DNA of 64,000 nt from positions 1 through 64,000 of the forward strand of contig JAHQIW010004447.1 in the NCBI GenBank assembly GCA_019055375.1. The letters are read 5' to 3'. The position numbers were made by a program, and so were the translations under genes. The notes under the pieces are model-generated. The model was not told the origin of the DNA. It saw only the letters and a list, made by a program, of their open reading frames with translations, and ran no database searches. Below are positions 3,208 to 57,800 of the stretch, in pieces. The stretch is from Parelaphostrongylus tenuis. Its lineage: Eukaryota; Nematoda; Chromadorea; Rhabditida; Metastrongylidae. Positions within the stretch are counted from its first letter, which is position 1, and each line of letters starts with the position of its first letter.

Positions 3208-3211
3208 GAGG

Positions 3212-3546
3212 CGCATGTGCTGCAGTGGTTAGAGGTGCCCCGCGTCGCACATAAGGTCGGTCGCTGGTTCGATCTTGCACACATGGCTCACCGAGCCATC
3301 CATCTCTCCGAGATCGGTAAATGATACCAGACTGGTCCCAGACTTGTCTGAGCGGATAGGCAGCACTGACTCGATACAACGGTAGGCCACTGCGAGTCAT
3401 TGTAAAGGGCCAGATATGACATGGTATGAATTAAAGGACCGATAAGATATGAAATAAATTAGATTACCTCAAACGAGGTTAAAAGTGAAGACGAATGCAT
3501 GACGCGTCTTTAAGGGATGCTCGATGCCGAAAGCTTTATTCCTTAG
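3212..3546 (+). repeat. SINE family A copy
   Basis: Nearly complete: GCGCATGTGCTGCAGTGGTT head, GGTTCGATC B box, GCCACTGCGAGTCATTGTAA body, and 3' end AAAGCTTTATTCC. An extra 40 bases interrupt the body near 3420-3465. Confidence 0.85.
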
Positions 3547-3554
3547 TGAGCTTT

Positions 3555-3774
3555 TGAGGTAGTTAAACACATATCTGGCCTTCAGAATGACTCAAAGTGG
3601 CCTCTCGCTGTACCGAGTCAGTGCCGCTTATCCTCCCATCCCAGCCTAAAACCAGTTTGGTACTGATTTACCAACCTCGGAGGCATGGATGGCTTGGTGT
3701 AGCCATAAGCGCGATATCAAACCATCGACTTTGTGTGCGACGCAGAGCACCTCTAACCACTACGTCACATGCGC
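3555..3774 (-). repeat. SINE family A copy, tail-to-tail with its neighbour
   Basis: The minus strand carries the head (GCGCATGTGACGTAGTGGTT) and about 210 bases of body; the 3' part is missing. It forms an inverted pair with 3212-3546. Confidence 0.8.
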
Positions 3775-4107
3775 TTGACTTTTGCACATCACTATACATT
3801 ATTAAGAAGAGCTAGATCACTGAGAAACGAACCGACTCGAGTTGTTGACTTTCGACATTCTCGTCCGTAACGACCCCATCATCTTCCTGACTAAACGCAG
3901 AAATGCCAATTGGTACAGCACAAAACGCTATGAGAGCTGCTGCACCAATTAGAACTACGAACCGAGACATCGGCCATACCACTAATTACTAAATAATCTG
4001 CAAAAAAAATCTTAGGGAGAAACCACACAGAAAAACGAGTCAAATCGGTGACAATCACGAAATACGAAGCGATCGAGGTAAATCAACCTTTTAAGGGTGG
4101 CTGTTAA

Positions 4108-5388: not shown

Positions 5389-5630
5389 GGCGGAGCCGTG
5401 GCCGAGTGGTTGCGATGCTTGTCGCTGCGCGCGTGGAGCCGGGCACCACCCCATACTCTCTCCGGCAGTCAACGACGACGCCCTGTTATCTTCAAGATTC
5501 CAAGGCCACTCGCTCAACCAATTTTCTACGACGTTCAGGAAAAATACGAAAAAACGAATTGAACGCTAGAAGTACTGGAAATCGCATTGTTAAAAGAATA
5601 GTGTGGAAAACGCACCAAATATAAAATATC
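5389..5630 (+). repeat. SINE family B copy (tRNA-Leu/Ser-like head)
   Basis: Head GCCGTGGCCGAGTGGTTGCG resembles a class II tRNA A box. The body has CTCTCCGGCAGTCAACGACG and the 3' end AATTGAACGCTAGAAGTACT, ending CACCAAATATAAAATAT. Same order as in four other copies here. Confidence 0.8.
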
Positions 5631-5633
5631 TTT

Positions 5634-5739
5634 CATTTCGAGTGTTTTCTTAAGACCACAGCTCAAATTTCAATATGCCTGATAATCATTATTTGAGCCA
5701 CGCATGTCAGTGGTCTGTCAATGAGGGCTGACTTATAGA
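5634..5739 (-). repeat. Body of the hammerhead-bearing repeat, copy 1
   Basis: Downstream of ribozyme 1 on the minus strand. It shares with 22090-22174 the end segment containing TTTGAG, GTGGTCTTAA and CACTCGAAAT, and with 22559-22620 the segment around GACCACNTGACATG and TGGCTCAA. This defines a dispersed repeat whose 5' part is the ribozyme. Confidence 0.65.
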
Positions 5740-5782
5740 GCCCGATACACGTGTTTCGATCTTGCGATCTCGTCAGTCGGGC
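5740..5782 (-). ncRNA. Minimal hammerhead self-cleaving ribozyme (copy 1, near-perfect)
   Basis: Read on the minus strand the 43 bases fall into hammerhead order. Stem I is GCCCGA with UCGGGC, six pairs. The core is CUGACGA. Stem II is GAUC-GCAA-GAUC, four pairs closed by a GNRA tetraloop. GAAA follows, then a very short stem III made by ACACGUGU. Expected cleavage is after the A of GUA, directly before UCGGGC. The palindromic short stem III is the type known from minimal type I hammerheads of newt satellite DNA, Penelope-like elements and metazoan retrozymes, which act best as dimers. All core residues are present. Activity is inferred, not shown. Confidence 0.85.
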
Positions 5783-5799
5783 ACCAAATATAGTCCTAA

Positions 5800-5862
5800 G
5801 AGAATTGAGTGGGGAGCAAAAAACACGACCTCAGCCGGGAGTCGAACCCGCGTTTCATCCAC
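5800..5862 (-). repeat. SINE family C fragment next to ribozyme copy 1
   Basis: Minus strand: GATGAAACGCGGGTTCGACT (B box), CCCGGCTGAGGTCG, then TTTTTTGCTCCCCACTCAAT and CTCTTAGG. It runs into the hammerhead about 20 bases later on the same strand. Confidence 0.65.
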
Positions 5863-5937
5863 GAAATTTCTAGTACTTTTACTGATTGGCGTGGTGATGA
5901 GGCGAGTGGGGGTGGTGCATGTATGGTGGCGTGAATG

Positions 5938-6042
5938 TATCTTGGTGATGTAGTGGTATCACGCGTCCCAGTATGGATGAAACGCGGGTTCGACTCCCAC
6001 CCAAGGTCGTATTTTTGCTCCCACTCGATTCTCTTAGGAATA
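5938..6042 (+). repeat. SINE family C copy (tRNA-Gly-like head)
   Basis: GGTGATGTAGTGGTATCACG (A box) and GCGGGTTCGACTCCCACCC (B box), then TTTTTGCTCCCACTCGATTC and TCTTAGG. It is the inverted partner of 5800-5862, with a 70-base loop between them. Confidence 0.75.
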
Positions 6043-6263
6043 TATCAAACATCATAACACTGCGAAAAATGCAATAGAAATACGAGAAATTTCGAGGTTC
6101 AATTTGGAGTCAAAAAAGTTGATGCTTGAGACAGCTTACTAACGATTTGTATTACTTTGAAACCTAAGAAATTTTTTTTGGCCGAGGAGATAAAGTTGAT
6201 GAATGTTCCGAGTTCCAACAATTTCAATGTGAATCTTATATTATTATCAAAAAAGCATTACAG

Positions 6264-6583
6264 GAGCGCATGTGGCGCAGTGGTTAGAGGTGCTCCGCGT
6301 CGCACACAAGGTCGATGGTTCGATCTCGCGCTCGTTGCTCACCTGGGCCATTCATTTCTCAGTGGGTCTATAAATTGGTACTAGACTGGCCCCAGATTTG
6401 TCAGAGAGTATAAGCAGCACTGACTCAATACAGTGGTAGATAACAGCGAGTCATTTTAGAGGTCAGGTAAGCGTTCAATCACCTTAACGAAGCTGAAGAT
6501 TGAAGACGAATGTATGGCTCAGTCTCTCAGGGAATGATCAACGCCGAGAGCTTTGAAGCTTTTTAGAGCCTTATCTGCTTACC
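6264..6583 (+). repeat. SINE family A copy, full length
   Basis: One of the best heads: GCGCATGTGGCGCAGTGGTT, then CGCACACAAGGTCGATGGTT and CGATCTCGCGCTC, giving clear A and B boxes of a pol III promoter. The body and the 3' GATCAACGCCGAGAGCTTT follow. Confidence 0.88.
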
Positions 6584-18000: not shown

Positions 18001-21000
18001 TCCGCGAAGATGACAAATTCTTGATCGAGCAATGAACGCGGGGTAACTAATTGAATGCTAAAAGTAGTGTTGATATTTCGTACCAGTAATGGTATTTCGC
18101 TTAGTCATAGTGAAATGGCTGTGATACGGACAAGTAAAGTGATCAAGGGAAATAGACCAAAGCAAACTAGCAAGCGGTCAATATAACCTTTTTATAACAC
18201 ATTTCGGCTTTACAACGTGCTGCGAAGCTTTATCACGGATCAATTGGTTCTCCCGAATACGGCCGAATAGCGTTTTGTCAAGATTACGGAAAAGAAACGA
18301 CGAAAGTACCTCAAAGTAATAATTTTCTGTCTTTAATTAACCTCTTGCGGCATCCATTTGTCAAACTTTTTGGGTTTTCGATTTCCTTCACATGCTGTAC
18401 GAGAATTGAGCTTCCCACACCAAGCTGTGCCAATTCTTGAACAGGTGTGCGTGTACTTCCACCAAAGCCTTCAGTTCATCGCCGTTCGTCCGCTCTCACC
18501 TTCATTTTGAAGGTCGAATTCGTCTCAACAAAATTTTTCAAACTGATGTTGCACAGTGTGCTCGTTTACTTTCCTTGATCCCGTACCTCATTAGTGGTTC
18601 GAGCCACTTGTGTAGCGTGTATTCGAGTTCGAATTCACAGAAGTAATTTTGCCGAAATTTCTATTCTAGGATATGATATTCTATCCTTTTGTATCCGTCA
18701 AAGATTATTCATAATACAGCTCAGAGACTTCAATTACATGACTCATCAAGGTGGCGCAATGGTTAGAGATGCCGTGCGATACACACGTGGGCAATGGTTC
18801 GATCCTACGCCCAGAGCTCATCACCCCTCCCATTCCTTGGGTCGCCGAATATTCCAAACTTGTCTAAAAAGATAACAGTACTGATTTAATAGGTTGGCAG
18901 GCCACCGCCAGTCATTGTAAAGGCCAGATTTACATTCAGTCACCCCAACGATTCTGACTACGACGACAATTTATACAGATTGATAAAGTCGAAGGCATGG
19001 CGCATCTCTCAGGGATTGATCGATGCCAAGACCTTTATCCATCAACCTTATCAGGCGTCAGCAGATGTACCACAGTGTGCTAATTCAAGCGCTTCTTGCA
19101 TTTGATCCGCTTTCTCGCATCCACCATCCGCGAAGGTTTTCAAAGTTGTTGCATGCGGGGGGATAGGTTGCTGACTGAGAGATTTTCCATCTTCGTCCAG
19201 AATGCTCAAAATGTCATTTGAACCTATCGTGTCAATTGTCTCTGAGGTCCTAAGATAGTAATTCTAGGGTATTCCCACATAAATTAGAGAGTAAGCCTAT
19301 CACAGGGAAGCGTGGTACCAATTTACCAATCTCGGTAGGATGAAAGACTTGGTGAGCTCAGGGCAAGACCGGACTAGTCTTTAATTCAAATCTAGAAAGC
19401 AAAAGTGCTTAGAATGAGCTTTGCTATTATATGTACTAGTAGAGATTGAAATAACGGATCATACATCAATTTCCAAGCAGTCTCAAGCAGAAGAAACATA
19501 ATAATTTATTGGAGGTAATTCTAATGTTAGAAATCTGAAAGTATTACTCAATCAGAAATAAAAATATAAAGAAATTGAAGGAGAAGGGAATGGGATTTGC
19601 AAACAACCATAAATGGAGATAAAAATAATGACAATGTTATTCTCTCACAAGAATGCGAAACAAATGAGAATAAAGTGGGGACAGGATTGTGGAAAAGAGC
19701 AGTTTTCTGAACATGTATTGTTTCGTTTAAGAATGTAGAAGGTGTCGATGTTTCTGAGTGGACATGTGCGGTGTGCTTACGTACAGAGTGCTCAGTAACC
19801 ATTAAAACTCTCAAACTGAAATTTTCTTAAATTTTTCCCTCAAGATGACAAACCTTTCTATCTATGCGAACTAGCTTCGTTAGTGATAAAGCCATAGCAA
19901 GGCTACCTAAGATCCCAAGAGAATGAAAAAATTTTTTTATACTGACACAGTGTCTTCTTCTACATTAATATTCAAACCATACAAATTCGATTCATTTTTT
20001 TTTTCGTTTTTTTTCCTCACCTAAGCCAAGCATATTCTTCCCCCATTCGAGGCTCTGTGAGGCCTCCAGTAAATAACTGAATGACTTGAAAACAACAATA
20101 TGGTGTATTCTCAAAAAGAAGCTGTTTATTGTGCGAACCAAAATTTGTTCACAACGTTATTTGAAGAGGCTATGAAAGTCTTTGACAGAGTGGATTTCTT
20201 GTCAGTGTGACCCTACAAGCTCTCAGTAAAGCAATAGTGCCAAAATATGAGCTTTAGTTTATTGTTTTTTTTTGCTAGTTCTATTTGATCCGTCTTCACA
20301 TCATGTGTGTTTTTTTCCACTGAGCCTCTCCCAGTAAATCTAGCATTCAGTTTGTGTTCTCGTCTTCTTGAACAATGTAGAACACTGATTGGGCGCATCT
20401 CCTTACAGTCTCGAGTATAGCCTGGCTGTGACGTTGCATAGAGTGTTCGCTGTTGACTGTTGGAAAGTGGTGAGGGGTGTAATCGGCCCTTCGCACGCTG
20501 CGATTACCACCACAACCACTCGGCCACAGCGCCGCCTTATTTTATTGTAATACAGTGTATTTGAGAAAACCTCTCGTTAGCAATCTCCTTTCGGATCATC
20601 AAGAAAAACAGTGAATAATTCAGTCAAGGCCGTGTTTGATATAAAGTCGGTCTTGGAAAGTGTCACAAGCGTTATTGACTATGAAATAATCCTGTCTTAT
20701 AATTGAGTTATAACTAACTGTAACGCAACTTCTCATAAAAATAGAGGTCTTCTGTAGAACCGTCATTCTCTCCATGAGAAAAGAGACCAACAAGACCAAT
20801 GTCACCATATCATTAAATGTGTTTACCGCCACTTACAATCGATAATAAAGTCATTGATTAAGATTAAAGTGTCATACGCGTTTGTTTTTGATAGAAAAAT
20901 CCTTGCGTTATAGAGCAGCGGTTATGAGGAACGCAACGACCCGGAAAAAGACGCATAACGCAAATTGCAAATTCAGGATTTTCAAAAACTCACAGAACAA

Positions 21001-24000
21001 AATTAGTTGCAAGTTGATATGGAATAGGAATTCGTCATGAAGAACAAAACCGCTTGAGTTTATCTGAGGCTCTCAGAAAAAAAAATATCGAACAGTCGGC
21101 ATACCGAAGACTTTTTCTGTGTATTTTCCACGTAAAGACCATCCTTACCCTCTTTAATGTACCAGCATTATAGATTCGCATCTTATGTCAAATCCTTCAT
21201 GTTTTATTTGCTACCTGTTTTTTTTTTTTTCATGACAGGGTACGATGGGAAATACAACCACAAGAGTGTTTGAATACGAGCAAAACTCAGAACCGCGATT
21301 ACCATTTCCAGAACTAACGTATTATCCACTGCGCCCCTAACACCGTTACTTTGCCTTTCATTCAGTCGAGTTTTGCTCGCATCTCAGCATTCTTAAGATT
21401 ATATTTTACATTATCTCTTCCTTGCGAAGTTCACGCATTACAGCACGCTTGAACGATATAGTATGAAGTATAACTAGCATAAAAAGTAGCAAGCCTAGAA
21501 GCTTTTCAGAATTCCCTTGATTTCATCACTGTCTTCCAGGTCTCTGATCTAGTCGTTTTGCTAGAAAGTCAATTTTTTCATTACCTGACTCTATCTGGCA
21601 AGAGCAAGAAAGTAATGATAACCACGATTCGGTACAAATTACAATCTAGAATTACCTGAAAAAGTATCGCTTTGGTTTATTGTGTGGATTCGTTGGTTCA
21701 TTTGAGAGCTTTCGTTGCAGATCCTCTTTTCACCCGATGACATGATGCAGTTGAAAATTGAATTGCTTCTGTTCCGTGATAGAAGCAGCACAGATTTTTT
21801 TGCTGCAGTTTCGTTTATCTAAATTCAGTTCATACCGGACCCGTCTATGAAGCTTCTTTTGATTTTTAATCTATTCAAAGTAAGAAACGACATTTAACCT
21901 TGAATAGTTTTTGAAGGACTAGCATCAGATGCGTACACCGAACCTTCCCTGTTAGGAAGACTAGTGCCTTTCATTCATAAGCTTTCAACCCACTGATTGA
22001 CCTAATGAAGATCGCGATTCCATTACCTCGTTTGTGGTGTGATGACGTTTTGAGCTGCTAACGAAACAAAACGATGGATTATACCTTTATTTCGAGTGCT
22101 TCATTAAGACCACACTCAAATTTTCAATAGATCTCTTCATTAGTATTTGACTCTTGTAAATGAACTCCTGTACAGCCCGATACACGTGTTTCGATCTTAC
22201 AGTGTCGTCAGTAGGGCAGAGCACGCCGAGCAGAGCGAAGCCCATCAGCGCAGAGCCCATTACCAGATCACATGACATGTTGGCTCACATAATAAAGAAA
22301 AGATCTGTCGAAATTTGAGCGTATAATAAAACACTTGAAATAAAGGCATAATATAATGAAAACATCAGCTAAAGAGCAATCGAGTGTACAATACTGTAAT
22401 TTCGGTGCTAATTTCACTTGACTTACAGTGTAAATCGTTCGTCTTTGATCCCTCTGTAGGGAGAGCAAGGACACCCGAGAGGATTGGCTAAAAAGATTGA
22501 AAGACGACGGGTTCTGCCCAACTGACGAGACTACAAGATCGAAACACGCGTATCGGGCGGTACAAGAGCCCATTACCGGACCACATGACATGTTGGCTCA
22601 AGTAATAATGAAGAAAACAATGGATTTCATGACCCGAGAGTGTCATTCAAATCAGTTTAGAATCATTATTAGCTAAGCTCCATAAAAATGTTATAAATGA
22701 TAGATTGGTGAGCAACAAATCATCTTTAACATATTGACGACCGTGTGCACACTATATTGTCCACGGGAGGGTAATTCTGCCTTTTTTAAAACCATTATTA
22801 GAGTTTCCCAAGCACTTTAGACCCTTTTTCCAACTCATAAACTTGAAAAAAGGGCGACCATCTAAAAAATTTGAATCGTTTGTGCCAAAACTAATTACTG
22901 ATTACTATATTAATAGTGTTTTAAAAGGGATTTACTACATTAATACGGATCTCAAGAGTCAGGCAGCCATTACGTGACTGGTTGCTTGCGAATGTGTTTA
23001 GAGACACCTACGAATTGTGTCTCATCTCTACAGTAATCAAGCATGCTTTTGTAGGCATAAATAAGACACCCTCACACCTTCATGCGTATAATTTGGAACT
23101 TCAAAGCCTTGATATGTACAGACGAATATAACGGTTGAGATCTCGCATGAGTGAACCAAAAAAATACTTTTTTTGATCGAAATTTACGTGCCTAGCATGA
23201 TGATTGCTGCATGCTCTTGTAGGCATAAATACGACACACCCGACACCTTCATGTATGCAAAGCCACTTGTCTGGACGATTTTCCGACTGCCGCGCAAGTG
23301 ATAAGCACGTTATCTGCAGATTCTCTTTTATCCCTACAAGGATCGTGAGAGCCATTTTGATGTTCACGACGCGACATCAAGCGGCGTCGCGCCTCGTGGA
23401 AAAGCAGGCAGAGAGTCAGACATGCGGAGCCACTTGTCTGGGACGATTTTCCGACTGCCGCATAAGTGACAGCACGACGCTGCCTGCCTATCAACGCTGG
23501 TTCTCAAAGGGTTATAATTAAATCAGTAAAATATATTGCGTTTAATGATGCAAGCCACAGTTATTTCCCTGCATTAGTAAATCATATAGGACTCATGTTG
23601 TGGCCAATATGCCAAAATATCTCATATTTTGCTTGTCTAGGCGGTAGTGTAGATTTATTTCGGAGATTTGCAGGATCCACGAGGGCGCCCATTCTGCTAA
23701 AGAAGATGCGGAGCCAGAACCTCCCCTCAGACAAATCAAGAGGAGAAAAAACGTCAATGTTAACAGAGTGCCCGATAAAGTGAGCAAGGTAAGCAAATTG
23801 CCAGTTGAATGTCACATTTTTTTACAAACAAGTTTTAAGTAGAAAAATAATTGCCAACAGAGCAGTTTTGACAGAGAATTCGGGATAAAGGATAAAGGAT
23901 AAAGCTCTCGGCGTTGATCAATCCCTGAGGGATGCGCCATGCATTCGACTTTCAATTTTTAACTTCGTTTGAGGTGATTGAATGCATATCTGGCCTTTAC

Positions 24001-27000
24001 AATGACTCGCGGTTGGCCTACCCGCTGAACCGAGTCAGTGCTGCCTTATCCCCCCAGACAAGTGTGAGACCTGCCTGGTACCAATTTACCGACCCCGGAG
24101 GGATGGATGGCTTGGTGAGCCATGGAGCGCGAGATCGAACCATTGACCTCGTGTGCAACGCAGAGGCACCTCTAACCACTGCCGCCACATGCGCTCTAGA
24201 ATTCGCGGAGAATAACTAATATTTCTACATTCCTACATTCAAATTCCTGGACTACTAATCTGTTTCACCCGTCCCGCTGATCTCTCACACGTGTCACCGC
24301 TCCCAACACCTTTGCGTGTCATTATCCTCAACCGATATCCGTCCACGTAGTCCGTATTGTTCCCGACGACTTGTATAGTCCACAGTGTAAGCGTCACCTT
24401 GGCCATCCGCGAAGGTATTGAATGTCCACAAAAATTTTAATCCGTCGAGACAAAGAACCGCGACCCACTGGCCGAGGGAGCGCTGCCTCGCTGTCCATGA
24501 GTACCTCTCAAAATCGGCATCGTTCAAAAATGATAGTGAGCTTGAGATCGGAGGGAGGGTGCGATGAAGCCTCAATGCGCCAGACTCACGGTGTCCATCG
24601 ACTCGTCGACGAATCGTTTTGTCGTCGACCCCGCGAAAATCTCCTCAAACTATGTTTAATTGTATGACAGACTACTAGATTAGTATATGATTGTGACTGT
24701 AGTAAAAAAAAATATCAGTTTTTATTCGAGAGAATAACTGTTTTAGTAGTTGTGAATAGTAGGGATTCAACCCGTCCCTAAAGAGGTTTCTTTCGTTTGA
24801 ACATTGTTCCGTTTAATTCTGATGTATTATTCAGGTAACTCATGACCCCATGTGAATGTAAAAAATCAATTATAGTCTCCACTGAAGCCATTCAAAACAC
24901 ACACTGGTCAATGGTGATAGTGATAATGATGACGATAACGACGATGATGATGATGACGATAATGATGAAAATAAGAAGAAGAATATTAATGATAACAATG
25001 ATGAAGATGATGATGATAGCGACAGGAATAATAACATCGAAAATGAAGAAGTTTGACCCGGAGAGCGCGACGTGCACGAGACACAGGTGAGAGCTTACAA
25101 AAGTCTTCGTGGATGTATGGCTCCTCTATAGACATTTTGAATGTTTATTTCCGTCAGTGCAGGATGAGAAACGAGAGCCAGCTCCTGGAAAGGGACTTAA
25201 AACCTCTGAAAATGAGATTGGATAGTGGAATCTGATGAACTTGCAGGACCACGTTATCCCGAAAGCGACGATCTCATGCTCTCGGTAAGCAAATAGAAAG
25301 TCAATATTTTAAGCGATGAATTATCCTCATAAAATTGCTAGGCACCTTCTATCTGACGCGATACCGGAACGTGAATGTAGAAGAAAACATTGTCCTCCCT
25401 TGTACGAAGCTGAGCCTCGACGATCACTTTTGAAAACGAAACATAAGGTGGCTTCTTTTTTTCTGTTCTTTTTTTCACTTATGACATTGTGAGTAGCAAG
25501 AATCTATTAGCATGTCATTTATGCAAACTAATTTGAAATAATAACATACTTTTGTAGGGTGTAAGTAAGCTGTGGAGGAGAGAATTGGTAGCAAAGGTCG
25601 TGATCAGTATGAAGATTACGAGAACGTTGAGGAAGACGATGAACTGGAGGATCAACTAAAGGAGAAGAACACTGAGGTTTGTCATTAAGTAAATACAGGT
25701 AAGAATGGGTGAGTAGTTCATAGTTTAAGAAGTAACTAATAGTCAATTCTATTCACTAATCAGATCAAAGGCTTTCCGAAGTTTGGAGTGTCTTACATAG
25801 CTATGAAATTCAAATTCGGATTATCTTCATCGACTTTCTTCACAGTAGACATAAAGTTGGGGACAGGCTATGACTATCTTCCTCCTCTTTCCACAAATAA
25901 TAATAAAAGTAACCGATTTGTGCATCAAATAATAAAGATATTAGCTGAGTATCAAACATTCAAAACTGGTCGAGCTGGCATCTAAGAGGTATAACTTGAG
26001 TATTTAGATCATCTGGGCGGGAATCGTATAGACGCGTCATGCCATCACGAATCGAGACGACCACAAGAATCGTAATATATTGGATCGAGCAGATGGTCTT
26101 GTGGAAAAGGTGAAGACGAAGCGTTTTTAAGAGGAACAAGAGAAACGACCAGTAATTGTTTTATCTTACTTGGATCATATGCATTTCAAGCGATGTATGG
26201 TTCCCAAGATTTATACGTGCGCACTCCAAATTCTCGCTCAAATTAGTGTAAGAACCATTAATTGCCACAGTGGGCTTAGTGAGTCCAACCTGAAAGATTC
26301 AAATCACAAGTTGCACTTAAGAAACCTATTCTTATGAATGAAACGTCTACCACGGTGAACGGTCATTCTTGGAAATTAATAAATCATGAACTAAAGTGGC
26401 ACTGGCATTTTCCGTTCACCGTTAATTCTACTTCAAGTCATAATGTTCTCAAACAATTTGGTAATGCTTATGTTGCTTTTGTTTACTAGCTCTTTTGATT
26501 TGGTATAATTGTTTGTGTGATTTGTGAAAAATGCGCACATAATATCATGGATTCGACCATCAATTCCTGCACAGCGGTGTTGTCCAGGAGTGAATATTTA
26601 GGCTTTTTTTTCTTATTACGGAAAAGGCCATCTGTTAGAGTGCTCCGTAACTGTAAATCCTATATGTCCGACGCGATGAAACCTTCAATTGCTCAAGATG
26701 TTTTTCTTTGTCTCGTAATTTGAGTGTTCTATATAAATTTTTTTTCGTTAGCTGTTGTTGAGAACTACGTGCAAATGGTGCATTTATTGTTTTGGAATGT
26801 GAAGAGAATATGATGATGTTAACAATTTTTCTTAGATAGGAAAGCTTTGAACTGAGCTACAAACATGTTTGGTTTGTTCAGATTCCTTTATGCATGTGCT
26901 ATAACTATGCTCGCAATCATAATCGTAGGCCTCTGGTTGTTTAACTAGAAGCCACAGAATACTCGTATTGTCTTTTTTTCTATTGAAAGAATACTCTGCT

Positions 27001-51800: not shown

Positions 51801-54800
51801 CTTGGTGAGCATTGCGTGTGGGATCGAATCATCGACCACATATGTGTGCCGCAGGGCACTGCTCACGAGTGCGCCACACGCGCCCTACCAAGTACGTATA
51901 AGTTTATTGAGTTCGCAACCACAAGATTTCAAGCTTTTAGAGATCAAGAGCCTTGTGAAAGCATTTTTCAAAGTGATTAAGCTGGACGTCCGTTTAGAAG
52001 TGCACAGCTAAGTTCATTTTTATCTTAGATAGTTCCATAATCCAACAATAGTTTCAACTTTTACAAAGTTGGTCACGACGAAATCGGGCTCGCTGCGTGC
52101 AACCGAATTTGTAATCGCTTTGAAATGATCAATGCCGATTGCAAACATTACAGCTTTTGATACGTTCCGTGAATGCTCTAAAAATACCATATTGTCATAA
52201 GTACCTCGCCAGTATTCAAAGAGTGGATTTCGATATCTCTTTTTGCATGAAAATGTCAGCCAATCTTTCTTTTAATGCAAATTCTCAGGAGAAACGTGTC
52301 TCCATTACCCATTTATTTTGCCCATTTCAAAATATAATGTCGTCGCCAATCTGCCCCAAAATCCACCGCTGATGGCATATTATTAGGCATTCTCATAACT
52401 CTTGGCACTAGACCAATAAACACAAAATCTATTCAGTAGAAGCTTTTAGATGGATTATTATTAGTCAATTAATAGCCCAAACCTCAACAACATTGACTCC
52501 AAAACTAACACTCGTAAATGCTTACAGAGAGCACAATCCGAGCGAAAAGAAAACTAAGTTTCCCACTCAAAGTAAATAGCTCATCGATAGAACTTCATAA
52601 CGAGCTTATTCGGCAAAGTGAAACAAAAAAAAATGTTCGCACCACAGGACGGTAGAACAAAATCTCGCTCACAAAATCAATACAAAAAACCTTTAAGTCT
52701 TTCCAAAATGGATAGAAAATTTTTAATGAATTACGAAGATTTGTGTCTTTTGAATGACGCTGCTTGTTTGAGTGACGCGCGATTTTCATTATTCAATTGG
52801 AAAATTTTCTCCGTTTTGTTAGAACTTCCAAGTTTTTTGTATTTGTATTGTAAAGAAGACTTTGTTCAATCATTTTATAGGCACATACCTTCTGATATCA
52901 CCTTGCCAAATAAGCCCATTAAGAAATTCGAGCGACGAGCTATTTACTCGAATGTAAAACGTGGTTCTCCTCCTCCTCTAGCAGCGTTCTTTGTGAACCT
53001 TTACGAGAGTCAATTTCAGAATCAAAATTGTTGAGATTTGAATGATCGAATGACTGATATTCGTCTAAAAACCTGTAATTATTGAATTGGTGTTATTGCT
53101 CTAGCGCCAGAACTTATGAGAAGACTTATCATAACAACGTCAAAACAGCTTGTCTTGATGCAGAAAAGAAGCACGGACAAACCTTCTGACAGCGATCTAT
53201 TTACCACACTTTCAGTTTATTTTGAATTTATGGTTTTGCCACTCCGAGGTCTTAAGTTTTATCAAAACAGGTGCTGTGATAATACCAAGCTCTTCGTTAA
53301 ACTCTTGTTCTGTTGTATATAGATTCGCATGCACAGCAAATCGCCTAGGACTCTACCTTCCTAAACGCATTGACTTCCAAACCAAATTTGATACTTGAGC
53401 TGTTTTCTGCACGCTATAATTTGTAAATAGTACAAAGAATTCCAAGAATTTGTTTTTTCCGTTAGTTAAAACTAACGACTGCCCGACCGAATTCTTTCTG
53501 AATAGCGATAATAAGAGTGATACTAAGAATGCGTAAAAAATCATGTTGCACATTACCAAAAGTTTTCCTTGGCAAGATGCTGGTCCATTCGGTGTAATAT
53601 AACTAATGAAGAGACCATCAGAGGCCCCAGAATGTGAGGAAGCAACAGCGAAACCGGGAGAACCAGAAGCATCACTTAAAGGTAACCATAGACATAGTCT
53701 TCTTGAATGAGCACACATGTGTAAGAAGAATAAAAATACCGTTTTAACGTTACACTAAGGGTCTCGCGACTATTAATTGGTACATCGCTCGAATCCGACA
53801 TGTGAGAAACATCGATGGATTGCTCCGGAAACTTCTATAAACAGGTTAAATGAAATAAGTATCCTTGAATAGAGTACCTATATTTAGGAGTTGTGAAAAA
53901 TATTTACCATAAAATTCGCGCCGACATCCTCTTTTCTCAAAACCAATAATTCCACAACATCGCCTGGTTCATTCATCGCACGTACGGCTTCGTCATGTGG
54001 CGCAGAGGAGACATCTATGTTGTTTACTCTAAAGGGGAGGAAATGTTTGTTAGTTAGAGATTTTCTCCAAGCTTTCTGCTCATTCTAATACGTATCGACC
54101 TGCCTGAGAAGTTTATCGTTAACTCGAAGGCCTGCTAGACTTGCAGGTCCGTCAGGCGTAACACGCGACACGAAAAGCGAGCAATCTCCTTCAACAAAGG
54201 GAGTGCTGCCCAAACCGCCAGCAATCGAAAGGCCCAAATGACCGTTTGCATCGCGAACAATAGAGATTTTGCGTGACACTCCATCCCGGTTAACAGGCGA
54301 TACAACTGTCGATCGATCCTAAAACTAATAATATGGAGAAAAAAAATAAATTATTGCCAGTATTCAAATAAGTCGCATCATTATTAGATGGCAATCAACA
54401 CTTAGAGTCCGACGTGAGCTATTTTTCGCCCCATTTCTTTGAGACCATTTATTTCGCAACAGGGATGTCTCATGCTGTAAACTACGCATCAGTTCGGCAG
54501 CTAATTCAACGTGAACTCCCAATTCTATGCGTCAAAAAATTAAAATTATTGTCGACACTTAGCAGAAAAAATGTTGGTGGTGGGGAACGTGTGAAATTCA
54601 TCAACATCCTAGCATGTGGGAAATGTAGAGACTTCACGCTTTAACATAACGAAGTCCCTCTTGCACTCATAGAGTGACACAACAAATGTTATTGATAAAG
54701 AGGTTATATGTGACTGACAGTAGATGGGAACGACAGAAAAAAAAGATGGACACTTACATCACGAATTGATTTTAATTCGCAGAGTCTATAGACCCGGTGG

Positions 54801-57800
54801 TCATGGGGAGCTAAACATCAGACCCTAGGTGTTAAAGATTTGCTTCGACGTTTTTCATGCTATGTAAACGCACAATCAGCTTAGAACACAATTCTATGAG
54901 GAGACTTGAAAACGCATGCTTTTCTTCACCAACTAAATTCGATCTCGTTTGGTCAGTGACACGCAAAAATAAAGTGACCAATCGGTCGTACTCGCCAAAG
55001 AATGAGTAAATAAAAAGTAACTGCAAAAACAAGAAAAGATAGTTACTGTGCGATGACACACCAAACCAGTTACACTATGATGTGTTTGAAGAATGTCGAT
55101 AAGAAGATAAGTAAAGCAAGAAGAGCGAAAATAGTTATTGAACTGAGTAGAAAACACAGCAGATACTAAAGCACTGGGTGGTAATAAACGGAAAACGGTA
55201 AGCCAGATGACCACGATTTGAGAAGAAAAAGAAGCATTTTCGGAAACATAACTCATGCTATGATCATGCCAGCAAAGTAAGGTTATTCAGGCGATTTCTC
55301 CTCTATAAAACCTACTCGTTCTGAAGAGGTTTGTAGAGCACCACGTACTCCTTTGAAATGTGGGGTGTTGATTCGCTTAAGTCGGCACATTGACGGTGCC
55401 TCAGGAACATCACTTGCGAAAGCAACGTTCTTCATCTAAACTCCCCAATTGAAGCTATAAACGTGATAGGATTCGTTAACGGCACTAAATCGTTAAGAAT
55501 CAGGCAGACTGACATAGGTAAAGCTTGAGTTCAAGAGAATAGCTTACTAGGACATTACTATAGTGGAACTTATATTGAGAAGCTGCAAAGGTATACAACG
55601 ACCTGATAGAAGTAAAAATGAACTTCAATTTTTATTTCTACAACTTCAGCAATAGTCGCCTGATTAGAAGCGTTACTATATACGGAGAAAAGTTGAGCAC
55701 TAATCACAATGAATTTTTTTTTTTAATACAAGATGATGCAGGAAGGGAGAATGGCTTCACAACAAAATGAACTAGACAAACTTAACTGTGGTACTTTGCA
55801 CATTGATTCGCCGTCTAAAAGCTTGTAATAAGTGAATGAGGAAGCAAATCGAACAGTTTCTAGTGTCTAAGCAACTAGCAAGTATATATACTTAGCTAAT
55901 GCTCAAAACATATCTAACAAAGACCTACGGCTGCATATATGAGTCCGATTAGTCGCGCTATTGAGAGATTAAGATTCGACAATACATATTCGTCTTATAA
56001 GAGAGACGGGATTACTGATGAGATAAAAGTAATTACATGAACAAAATTTTTTGAAAGGAAAATCTTCACGGACAATTCATTCACAAAGGAAACATTCATA
56101 ACAACACAAACCTGCGTTGATTCTGGTGACTGTAGTTCCTGAGATGGCATGCTGTGCTCTGGTTCATATCTGAAGAACGAAAATATCACCTTTGCTACTT
56201 TCAAACAAGCCTACAAATTTATTTCATAACAAACGTGGATTTTTATAACGGGAAATATTCCAGCTGATTTGTTCCACTCCTATAGTTGAATCTCCCCAAA
56301 ATTTTCCCAGTAATTTTAGTAAAAATTCGGTCTAACAGATGAAAAAAAAAAACAGCAGAATAAACTAATTATGGTTGACAACCAATGACCGGTATTGGCT
56401 CAACCTCATGAACTTGTACACTCGATTCTCGACAAAATTGTGGCAATGAAATCATAAGCATTACCCATAGCAAGTCCTAGAGTAACATGACACGAAATTG
56501 TTAGTGTCTCACAGAAAAAAAAAATTCGATAACGAAAACAATAAGTTAATATTTAGTTGGTTAACGATAATTATGGATTCTGCAGAATGATTCAAGAGCC
56601 ATCACCTACGCATAGTATACGTATGTTATGTGCAATACATATGTATGTTTATATGTAGTATAGATACGTACCACTTTTATATGCACATGTATACGTGCGT
56701 ATATATTTATATAGAGCTACGTATACATATACATTTTCATATGTACACATACATATGTCTATATATGAATAGACATGAAGGTTTTGGTGCAAATTCGCTC
56801 AATAATTCTAACCTCATGTGCAGAGTTAAACGTCATTTAATGCTCGATTTCCAACTTGATTTTTCTTGCATATCCTCTGATACTATTTAAATAACGATAA
56901 TAATTTGCTGTACGGACCCCGGCTCTTCGAGCATTCGATTAGCTTCCTCGCATGCATGCTCCACAAAGATCCTCGAACACTTCGAGTGCTATTCTAAGTG
57001 CTGGTAGAGAATTTCGTCTTATTCATGAATAACGTGGAATACTGGTTAGAAAAAAATCTTTGGAATCCCGGAAAAATCAAAGCTAAGACTTTTATCGGCA
57101 TGTAGTTGATTGATTCCAAGAAAGTGCTGGTAACGAGATCGTAACAGATCACGGGAAGAGATTACTTTGCTTCCCGGTACACTCACTGTATCACTGTATC
57201 ACTGTATCACTACCTGAGCGGGGAAGCTGGGCAGACGTGGGTCTCATGGCAGTTAACCAGTCAAGAACCCTACATTATAATCGGCACACCACTTCCAATA
57301 AATCAATGGAACTCAAAATTCCTTGTATTTTTACTGCATTTTCGCAGTATTATGATGATTCAGATGTACCTTGTGTGGTGAGCAAAAGTTCGACCTCAGG
57401 CGGGAGTTAAACCCGCGTTTCACCTATACCACGGCGCGTGCTACCACTACACCACCGAGGCACTGTTTCCATACCACACATTAGTCTCTACTCGCTAGCA
57501 CTCTACTTCAATTAATGAAACCACTGAAAAGTGGAATACTTACTTTTGCACGCCACAGAAATGGCCATAAGTTTTGGTTTATGTAAATAAGAGCATACAC
57601 GTGATCGTGATTTTCCAAATGGAAAATAATTTGGAGGATAATTGTGGTAACAAAAAAGAAAACGAAAAAACCATATACAAAAAAAAATTTCAAAAATCGT
57701 TTGACTGATACGAGCAGCTCAGGTGAAATTTTGAAAAGATATCTTACTCAGTTGGTGGAACACTCTGAAATTTTAGCGCAGATCGTGGAGCCGGTTGAGG

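Follow-up and report, generated by a model that had tools for sequence, protein, structure and literature searches.

The closest described relatives of the element reported here come from two bodies of work. Metazoan retrozymes lacking long terminal repeats (LTRs), PBS and PPT are non-coding, tandemly arranged units of ~170-400 nt with a GC content below 50% and a type I hammerhead ribozyme; they are expressed as linear and circular RNAs, dispersed, bounded by target-site duplications (TSDs) of more than 4 bp and predicted to form self-paired circles, and their host genomes contain Penelope-like elements (PLEs), which on the basis of this co-occurrence were described as 'a strong candidate' for moving them (Cervera and de la Pena 2020, PMC7229834). 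Among PLEs themselves, those of rotifers have inverted pseudo-LTRs (pLTRs), 8-10 bp TSDs and a tail that is optional on one inverted pLTR (PMC3846280), and the protein of an anole PLE uses two neighbouring internal positions to begin reverse transcription, in agreement with the 'tail', and shows no start-site difference between strands (PMC11167929). Here, we describe a hammerhead-containing element in a 64,000-nt stretch of DNA (the window) from the nematode Parelaphostrongylus tenuis (assembly GCA_019055375.1, contig JAHQIW010004447.1, positions 1 to 64,000). We consider it very likely that this is a non-autonomous retrozyme that owes its insertion to the machinery of PLEs, acting from both strands of the target and from two start sites inside the unit, on a template that is probably a circular RNA.

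The hammerhead occupies positions 5740-5782 of the minus strand, which reads, from 5782 to 5740, GCCCGA CUGACGA GAUC-GCAA-GAUC GAAA CACGUGUA and then, beyond the predicted cut, UCGGGC. Stem I comprises six pairs (5782-5777 with 5745-5740) and is followed by the core CUGACGA (5776-5770), a four-pair stem II (5769-5766 with 5761-5758) with loop GCAA, the core GAAA (5757-5754), a stem III formed from the palindrome ACACGUGU (5754-5747) and A17 at 5746, the cut being predicted at 5746/5745. An earlier note on this DNA, made from the sequence alone, had listed every conserved core base, the GCCCGA/UCGGGC and GCAA-capped stems and the short palindromic stem III, and the minus-strand letters agree with it throughout. 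The arrangement is that of a type I ribozyme (CUGANGA...GAAA...H17, with three helices and open at stem I), and a regular-expression scan of both strands of all 64 kb found the full type I topology only here.

The covariance check suggested in the note came out partly in its favour. Rfam model RF00163 gave a full-length match (E 5e-5, in a search on 241 nt), but at 27.7 bits this falls short of the gathering score of 34, which no match anywhere in the window reached. Two other results likewise count against the assignment. In the minimum free energy (MFE) fold of the 43-mer (-14.5), stems I and II form but a 3-bp helix competes in the core, and the hammerhead structure with a 2-bp stem III comes to -10.9 by thermodynamic folding, so that energy alone cannot single out the hammerhead fold. 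Matches to RF00163 at E<=10 also occur in 11 of 14 control genomes, none of them above the cut-off. On the letters, we regard a type I hammerhead with all its core bases as confirmed and its self-cleavage, at GUA|U, as predicted; cleavage as a dimer through the palindromic stem III is a plausible proposal.

That the ribozyme lies in a dispersed nematode repeat, as had been surmised, was supported by a search of the genome (481.5 Mb in 5,105 contigs): the 43-mer with up to three mismatches has 4,189 copies genome-wide (2144 + 2045), and its reversed control has none. The repeat, family F1, has a non-coding unit of 317 nt (GC 0.43), numbered here from the predicted cut (u1 to u317), that occurs singly, in tandem arrays or as a pair of divergent arms. 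Same-strand spacing was 315-318 nt in all 16 listed cases within 1 kb, and when window 5600-5900 was used as the query many of the 84 matches ended at query position 184, the end of the window's element. Folded as a circle, the unit reaches -88.8 kcal/mol (z -4.5), and none of 100 shuffles was as low. The note's placing of the element among PLEs and retrozymes is supported by these tandem 317-nt units; the non-coding tandem unit of this size, the type I hammerhead, the dispersal, the TSDs, the self-paired predicted circle and the co-resident PLEs recur in F1, which differs from the described metazoan examples (PMC7229834) in its nematode host, its short stems, a stem III that is a perfect palindrome and circles that are as yet predicted. 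The main text of that paper makes no mention of nematodes or of inverted arms. It does describe satellite hammerheads of amphibians (newt and axolotl) with 330-350 nt units, a weak stem III with a palindromic tetraloop and better cleavage as dimers, from which F1 differs in sequence.

F1 is accompanied by other hammerhead families. F2, with a unit of 284-285 nt and a distinct hammerhead, has 1,368 exact-pattern copies (0 for the reversed pattern), and most of the above-cut-off RF00163 matches belong to it by sequence; genome-wide, among the candidates scored, there were 69 matches at E<=10, of which 20 exceeded the gathering score (best 45.8). Across F1, F1b, F2, F3 and F4, two-sided (compensatory) changes affect four of the six stem I pairs and three of the four stem II pairs, a count made with one representative per group after a scan that itself demanded some pairing, F4 having one non-pair, and in hand-anchored columns, as a MAFFT alignment of nine hammerheads put the stems wrongly. 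Stem III is palindromic in the representatives of all five groups and in the PLE hammerhead. The F3 hammerhead repeat, with stem III ACACCGGUGU, was seen at L006 (minus, near 2189) and L044 (plus, near 1189), and in the former copy the sequence downstream of the hammerhead has a clear relationship to the tail of the PLE. An F2 array on contig C149 has four minus and four plus units among the places listed. A scan of IMG/VR for GAAACACGTGTATCGGGC gave 0 matches.

The 317-nt unit is too short for an open reading frame (ORF) encoding reverse transcriptase (RT) and GIY-YIG domains; such an ORF was found in a separate PLE. A fragment of the latter (L007:3-1070) encodes GIY-YIG (E 2.4e-5) and RT (YIDD motif, read by eye) and then carries a minimal PLE hammerhead, a type with 1,986 genome copies at up to three mismatches (0 for the reversed pattern). 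PLE protein matches are numerous; among the 114 that were scored out of 25,665 candidates, the longest open frame reaches 909 aa. Among the 120 homologues listed of 214, those with names are strongylids (Ancylostoma, Haemonchus, Necator, Heligmosomoides, Nippostrongylus and Angiostrongylus), many of the listed carrying no name; a search of the PDB with the fragment gave no match at E 0.01. Two more PLE-type minimal hammerheads, at L004:344 and L027:3212, apparently represent other families. The presence of PLEs raises the question of whether the 317-nt units are solo pLTRs of an autonomous PLE yet unrecognised and not an independent retrozyme, given that PLE pLTRs occur solo and inverted (PMC3846280) and carry hammerheads (PMC11167929) and that the downstream module of F3 is common to PLEs. 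The constancy of F1 spacing in every listed case argues otherwise, as does the PLE found here, with its different hammerhead and lack of significant similarity to F1, and we consider this origin very unlikely. F1 further departs from PLEs in being non-coding, in length and sequence, and in its longer palindromic stem III.

Evidence on the mode of insertion comes from 57 F1 insertions, made up of 37 usable of 40 near-consecutive exact-hammerhead places, a criterion that favours young copies, and 20 loci from the list of 84 matches, chosen by eye and biased to tandem and inverted places. The 40 were the first such places by contig number, skipping C54, C88 (previously listed), C119:131, C170, C183 and C188. 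Rows removed were L067 and L073 (cut by the stretch fetched), L099 (the same insertion as L098), L021 (no exact hammerhead) and L041, together with the duplicates L010, L011, L013, L016, L018, L020 and L026. Two arms are present in 38 of the 57, and in all of these the arms diverge, the ribozyme strand having its 3' ends on the outside; convergent arms were found in 0 of 57. The outer ends are bimodal, with 50 at site A (u35-85, median 73.5) and 45 at site B (u104-155, median 122), about 48 nt apart, and no outer end within u86-103. The double arms divide into 32 AB, three AA and three BB (P 1.2e-5 versus independent choice), the A/B boundary having been fixed after the ends had been seen; in the near-consecutive sample alone, AB accounts for 21 of 26 (P 0.0012).

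Of 58 untruncated loci (duplicate L099 included), 25 have direct repeats of at least 10 bp at their flanks, versus 5 of 3,306 mismatched flank pairs. TSDs of at least 9 bp are present at 28 of the 57 insertions, with a modal length of 12 (13 of 28) and 72% AT. Inner ends are spread around the unit without a peak at the cleavage point. A run-off at the cleaved 5' end had been entertained, as BLAST placed seven of 95 arm ends at u1-2, and was rejected: base-by-base extension moved six of the seven to u301-316 (three by 2-4 matching bases), leaving one at u2, and therefore there is no run-off peak. The inverted and tandem architecture of F1 and its abundance would also be expected of an ordinary foldback or satellite repeat amplified as DNA, with the hammerhead a vestige, but the inner ends are ragged, the TSDs are ~12 bp long, the outer ends fall into two clusters and the arms are in divergent order, all of which speaks against such amplification, and we find it scarcely credible.

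Inverted head-to-head ends, a tail on one of them and a short TSD are the marks of a PLE insertion, and F1 has them all: the head-to-head ends with the tail on one of two resemble those of the minimal-hammerhead PLEs of rotifers (PMC3846280), and two internal RT start sites with extension of both strands recall the anole PLE (PMC11167929). By this anatomy, F1 appears to insert as PLEs do while not itself being one. The second arm might instead derive from self-priming, or snap-back, of the cDNA and not from priming at the second target strand. The palindromic centres of rotifer PLEs were interpreted in this way (PMC3846280), and a few F1 insertions do have equal ends (L095, 73/73; L094, 72/75). 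Snap-back would, however, repeat the end of the first arm, whereas the 32 AB insertions end at two different sites; moreover, the anole PLE protein cleaves both strands of the target in vitro and extends each of them (PMC11167929). We judge snap-back to be unlikely.

The insertion in the window is a single arm of ~166 nt on the minus strand (5618..5783), with 98-100% identity to the 317-nt reference unit. It runs from u128 to u1 and then, past the predicted cleavage/ligation junction, from u317 to u280, being 5'-truncated one base before stem I. It is bounded by 12-bp TSDs, GCACCAAATATA at 5612..5623 and again at 5781..5792; the last 6 nt of the left copy (microhomology) and the first 3 nt of the right copy also match the element end. 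The hairpin module of the unit lies at 5654..5715 on the minus strand, its stem pairing GACCAC (u31-36) with GTGGTC (u87-92) around an inner GGCTCAAAT/ATTTGAGCC. Site A falls inside this module (~5672 by unit numbering) and site B 3' of it, the window copy beginning at u128 (~5618). As a 5'-truncated single arm, this copy itself need not be transcribed or active. Two independent single-arm insertions, that in the window (5783) and L091, end at u280, the base preceding hammerhead stem I; the shared stop may be chance or an RT stop.

As to the template, the cleavage junction is crossed by 86 of 95 F1 arms, and the template must thus have been either a circle or an uncut multimer. One insertion, on contig C290 and picked for its striking look, contains ten complete units in two arms, with outer ends at u114 and u74 and with TTATCTTTATTACTT at both insertion ends, partly overlapping the element. 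Its units share 11 substitutions relative to the reference, and all 45 pairs are identical once A-runs are collapsed (21 of 45 exactly). This suggests, as the simplest account, that one RNA circle was copied repeatedly; homogenisation of the array or an identical multimer template is the alternative. More generally, minor-allele agreement within an F1 insertion is 0.43 for the same arm and 0.51 for opposite arms, compared with 0.10 between insertions.

An uncut linear multimer transcript could have served in place of a circle, with the ribozyme dispensable as it is in the anole PLE assay, where insertion in vitro was unaffected in hammerhead mutants (PMC11167929), and junction crossing is compatible with either template. 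The identity of the C290 units in both arms except for A-runs, the minor-allele concordance within insertions, and the retention of hammerheads with two-sided stem changes between groups all count against the linear multimer, which we regard as rather unlikely. The earlier note's proposal of a self-processing, possibly circular RNA element is supported: the units are retrozyme-like, and a circular template for F1 is suggested.

The same signature is found in F2 and in the PLEs of this genome. For F2, 37 chain rows were drawn from the top-scoring Rfam matches, of which 14 double-arm rows were used after removal of L034 (the same insertion as L033), of L035, L036, L037, L041 and L053 (outer end unreached), and of single-arm or fragment rows; 12 of the 14 usable double-arm chains are AB, with medians of 41.5 and 93.5 (spacing ~52), and TSDs of 11-15 bp are seen in 11 of the 37 rows (10 distinct insertions). 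The arms of divergent PLE pairs are unequal in length in 12 of 13 cases, and the thirteenth pair is symmetric (L110/L111, retained as a single equal pair). In those 12 the short arm ends near reference positions 161-185 and the long arm extends to 216, the full length of the reference, or beyond it (L117 and L119), giving a start-site spacing of 38 nt or more. TSDs of 9-15 bp flank 11 of the 13 pairs. Opposite-strand neighbours within 1 kb are in the '-+' order in all cases for F1 (11/11), PLE (10/10) and F2 (21/21), counted over the first 100 listed places per family on contigs holding two or more of these; one PLE '+-' pair exists, 4.5 kb apart.

Comparison of start-site modules gave a more divided picture. 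F1 and F2 share a hairpin and trailing motif just downstream of the hammerhead, and F3 and PLE1 share a downstream module (0/1000 shuffles each). Of 15 module pairs compared, five were at or below 1/1000 (F1-F2, F1-F5, F3-PLE1, F3-PLE2 and PLE1-PLE2), and between-group similarity was weak or absent, with counts per 1000 shuffles of 13 for F1-F3, 21 for F2-PLE1, 42 for F1-PLE2, 100 for F2-PLE2, 158 for F2-F3 and 263 for F1-PLE1. A recognition structure common to the groups may be taken as a lead.

These observations can be accommodated by the following scheme. Multimeric F1 transcripts would self-cleave and be ligated to give ~317-nt circles; the PLE protein would make a staggered cut at the target, and cDNA synthesis on the RNA would then be primed by both target 3' ends, from site A in one case and from site B in the other. 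Synthesis could traverse the ligation junction several times before the two cDNAs became joined head to head. We would put at about even the chances of a more specific proposal, namely that PLE insertion follows an asymmetric rule, in which the ends of a break prime on different sites, A and B, of one RNA, and that a circle templates both arms. A small circle would be an endless template for both arms, and retrozymes would hence be circular-RNA parasites of PLEs that record single rolling-circle RT events.

A number of results weigh against retrozyme insertion by PLE machinery as set out here. The A/B rule is broken by six of the 38 double-arm F1 insertions, 19 of the 57 insertions have a single arm only, and in 29 of 57 a TSD of at least 9 bp was not seen; the F2 and PLE TSD counts were made without a shuffled-flank control. 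Rare variants are mostly unshared within insertions, and the C290 array owes its place to its appearance. A start-site sequence common to F1 and the main PLE, convincing by eye, was discarded as not significant (the 263/1000 given above), six prior sequence tests of the same pair lay at 60-704/1000, and F5, itself closely related to F1, has no match in F3 or in the PLEs (361-985/1000). Finally, scoring 40 of 2,646 candidates with a joined-flank query did not turn up an empty site for the window insertion; the query matched the window's own two pieces and the right-flank repeat.

The window holds several other repeats. An older, divergent double-arm insertion related to F1 lies at 22081..22613; it retains two hammerheads in a decayed state (22175-22217, minus; 22516-22558, plus) and has flanks AAAACGATGGATT (22068-22080) and AAAACAATGGATT (22614-22626) that form a 13-bp repeat with one mismatch. 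Adjoining the right edge of the retrozyme insertion, positions 5788-6045 form an imperfect inverted repeat with a core resembling a tRNA B box; the family is dispersed, contig C2485 having copies spaced by ~293 bp and other places having inverted pairs, and the portion up to 5880 has no Rfam hammerhead match. A repeat at 6262-6400 resembles a tRNA-derived short interspersed element (SINE), an identity that is our reading of the sequence, and has further copies at 533-675, 970-1019, 3211-3346, 3652-3775, 18751-18804, 24059-24196 and 51804-51883. The one tRNA-like gene that ARAGORN predicts in the window lies at 57392-57461, separate from this repeat. Elsewhere in the genome, a 22-mer that we take to be the nematode SL1 leader has 102 exact copies, many in a tandem array with ~568-bp spacing on contig C3131; the Rfam SL1 model matches only below its cut-off. 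The leader copies and the strongylid PLE homologues both point to a nematode genome, on our reading that of a strongylid.

Within the literature searched, nematodes now join the known hosts of retrozymes, and divergent two-arm retrozyme insertions with two start sites were not described in the open-licence part of it that was covered. Within one genome, retrozymes and PLE resemble each other in TSD length, in their divergent arms and in start sites ~40-50 nt apart, and this shared insertion anatomy supplies a link, at the level of sequence, between retrozymes and PLE machinery. The nematode arms would fit a single break at which each end primes synthesis at its own site, and the C290 array resembles several turns of reverse transcription around one 317-nt RNA circle. 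With predicted start sites on a short and defined RNA, F1 lends itself to study in vitro, and its thousands of copies are a readable record of PLE integration.
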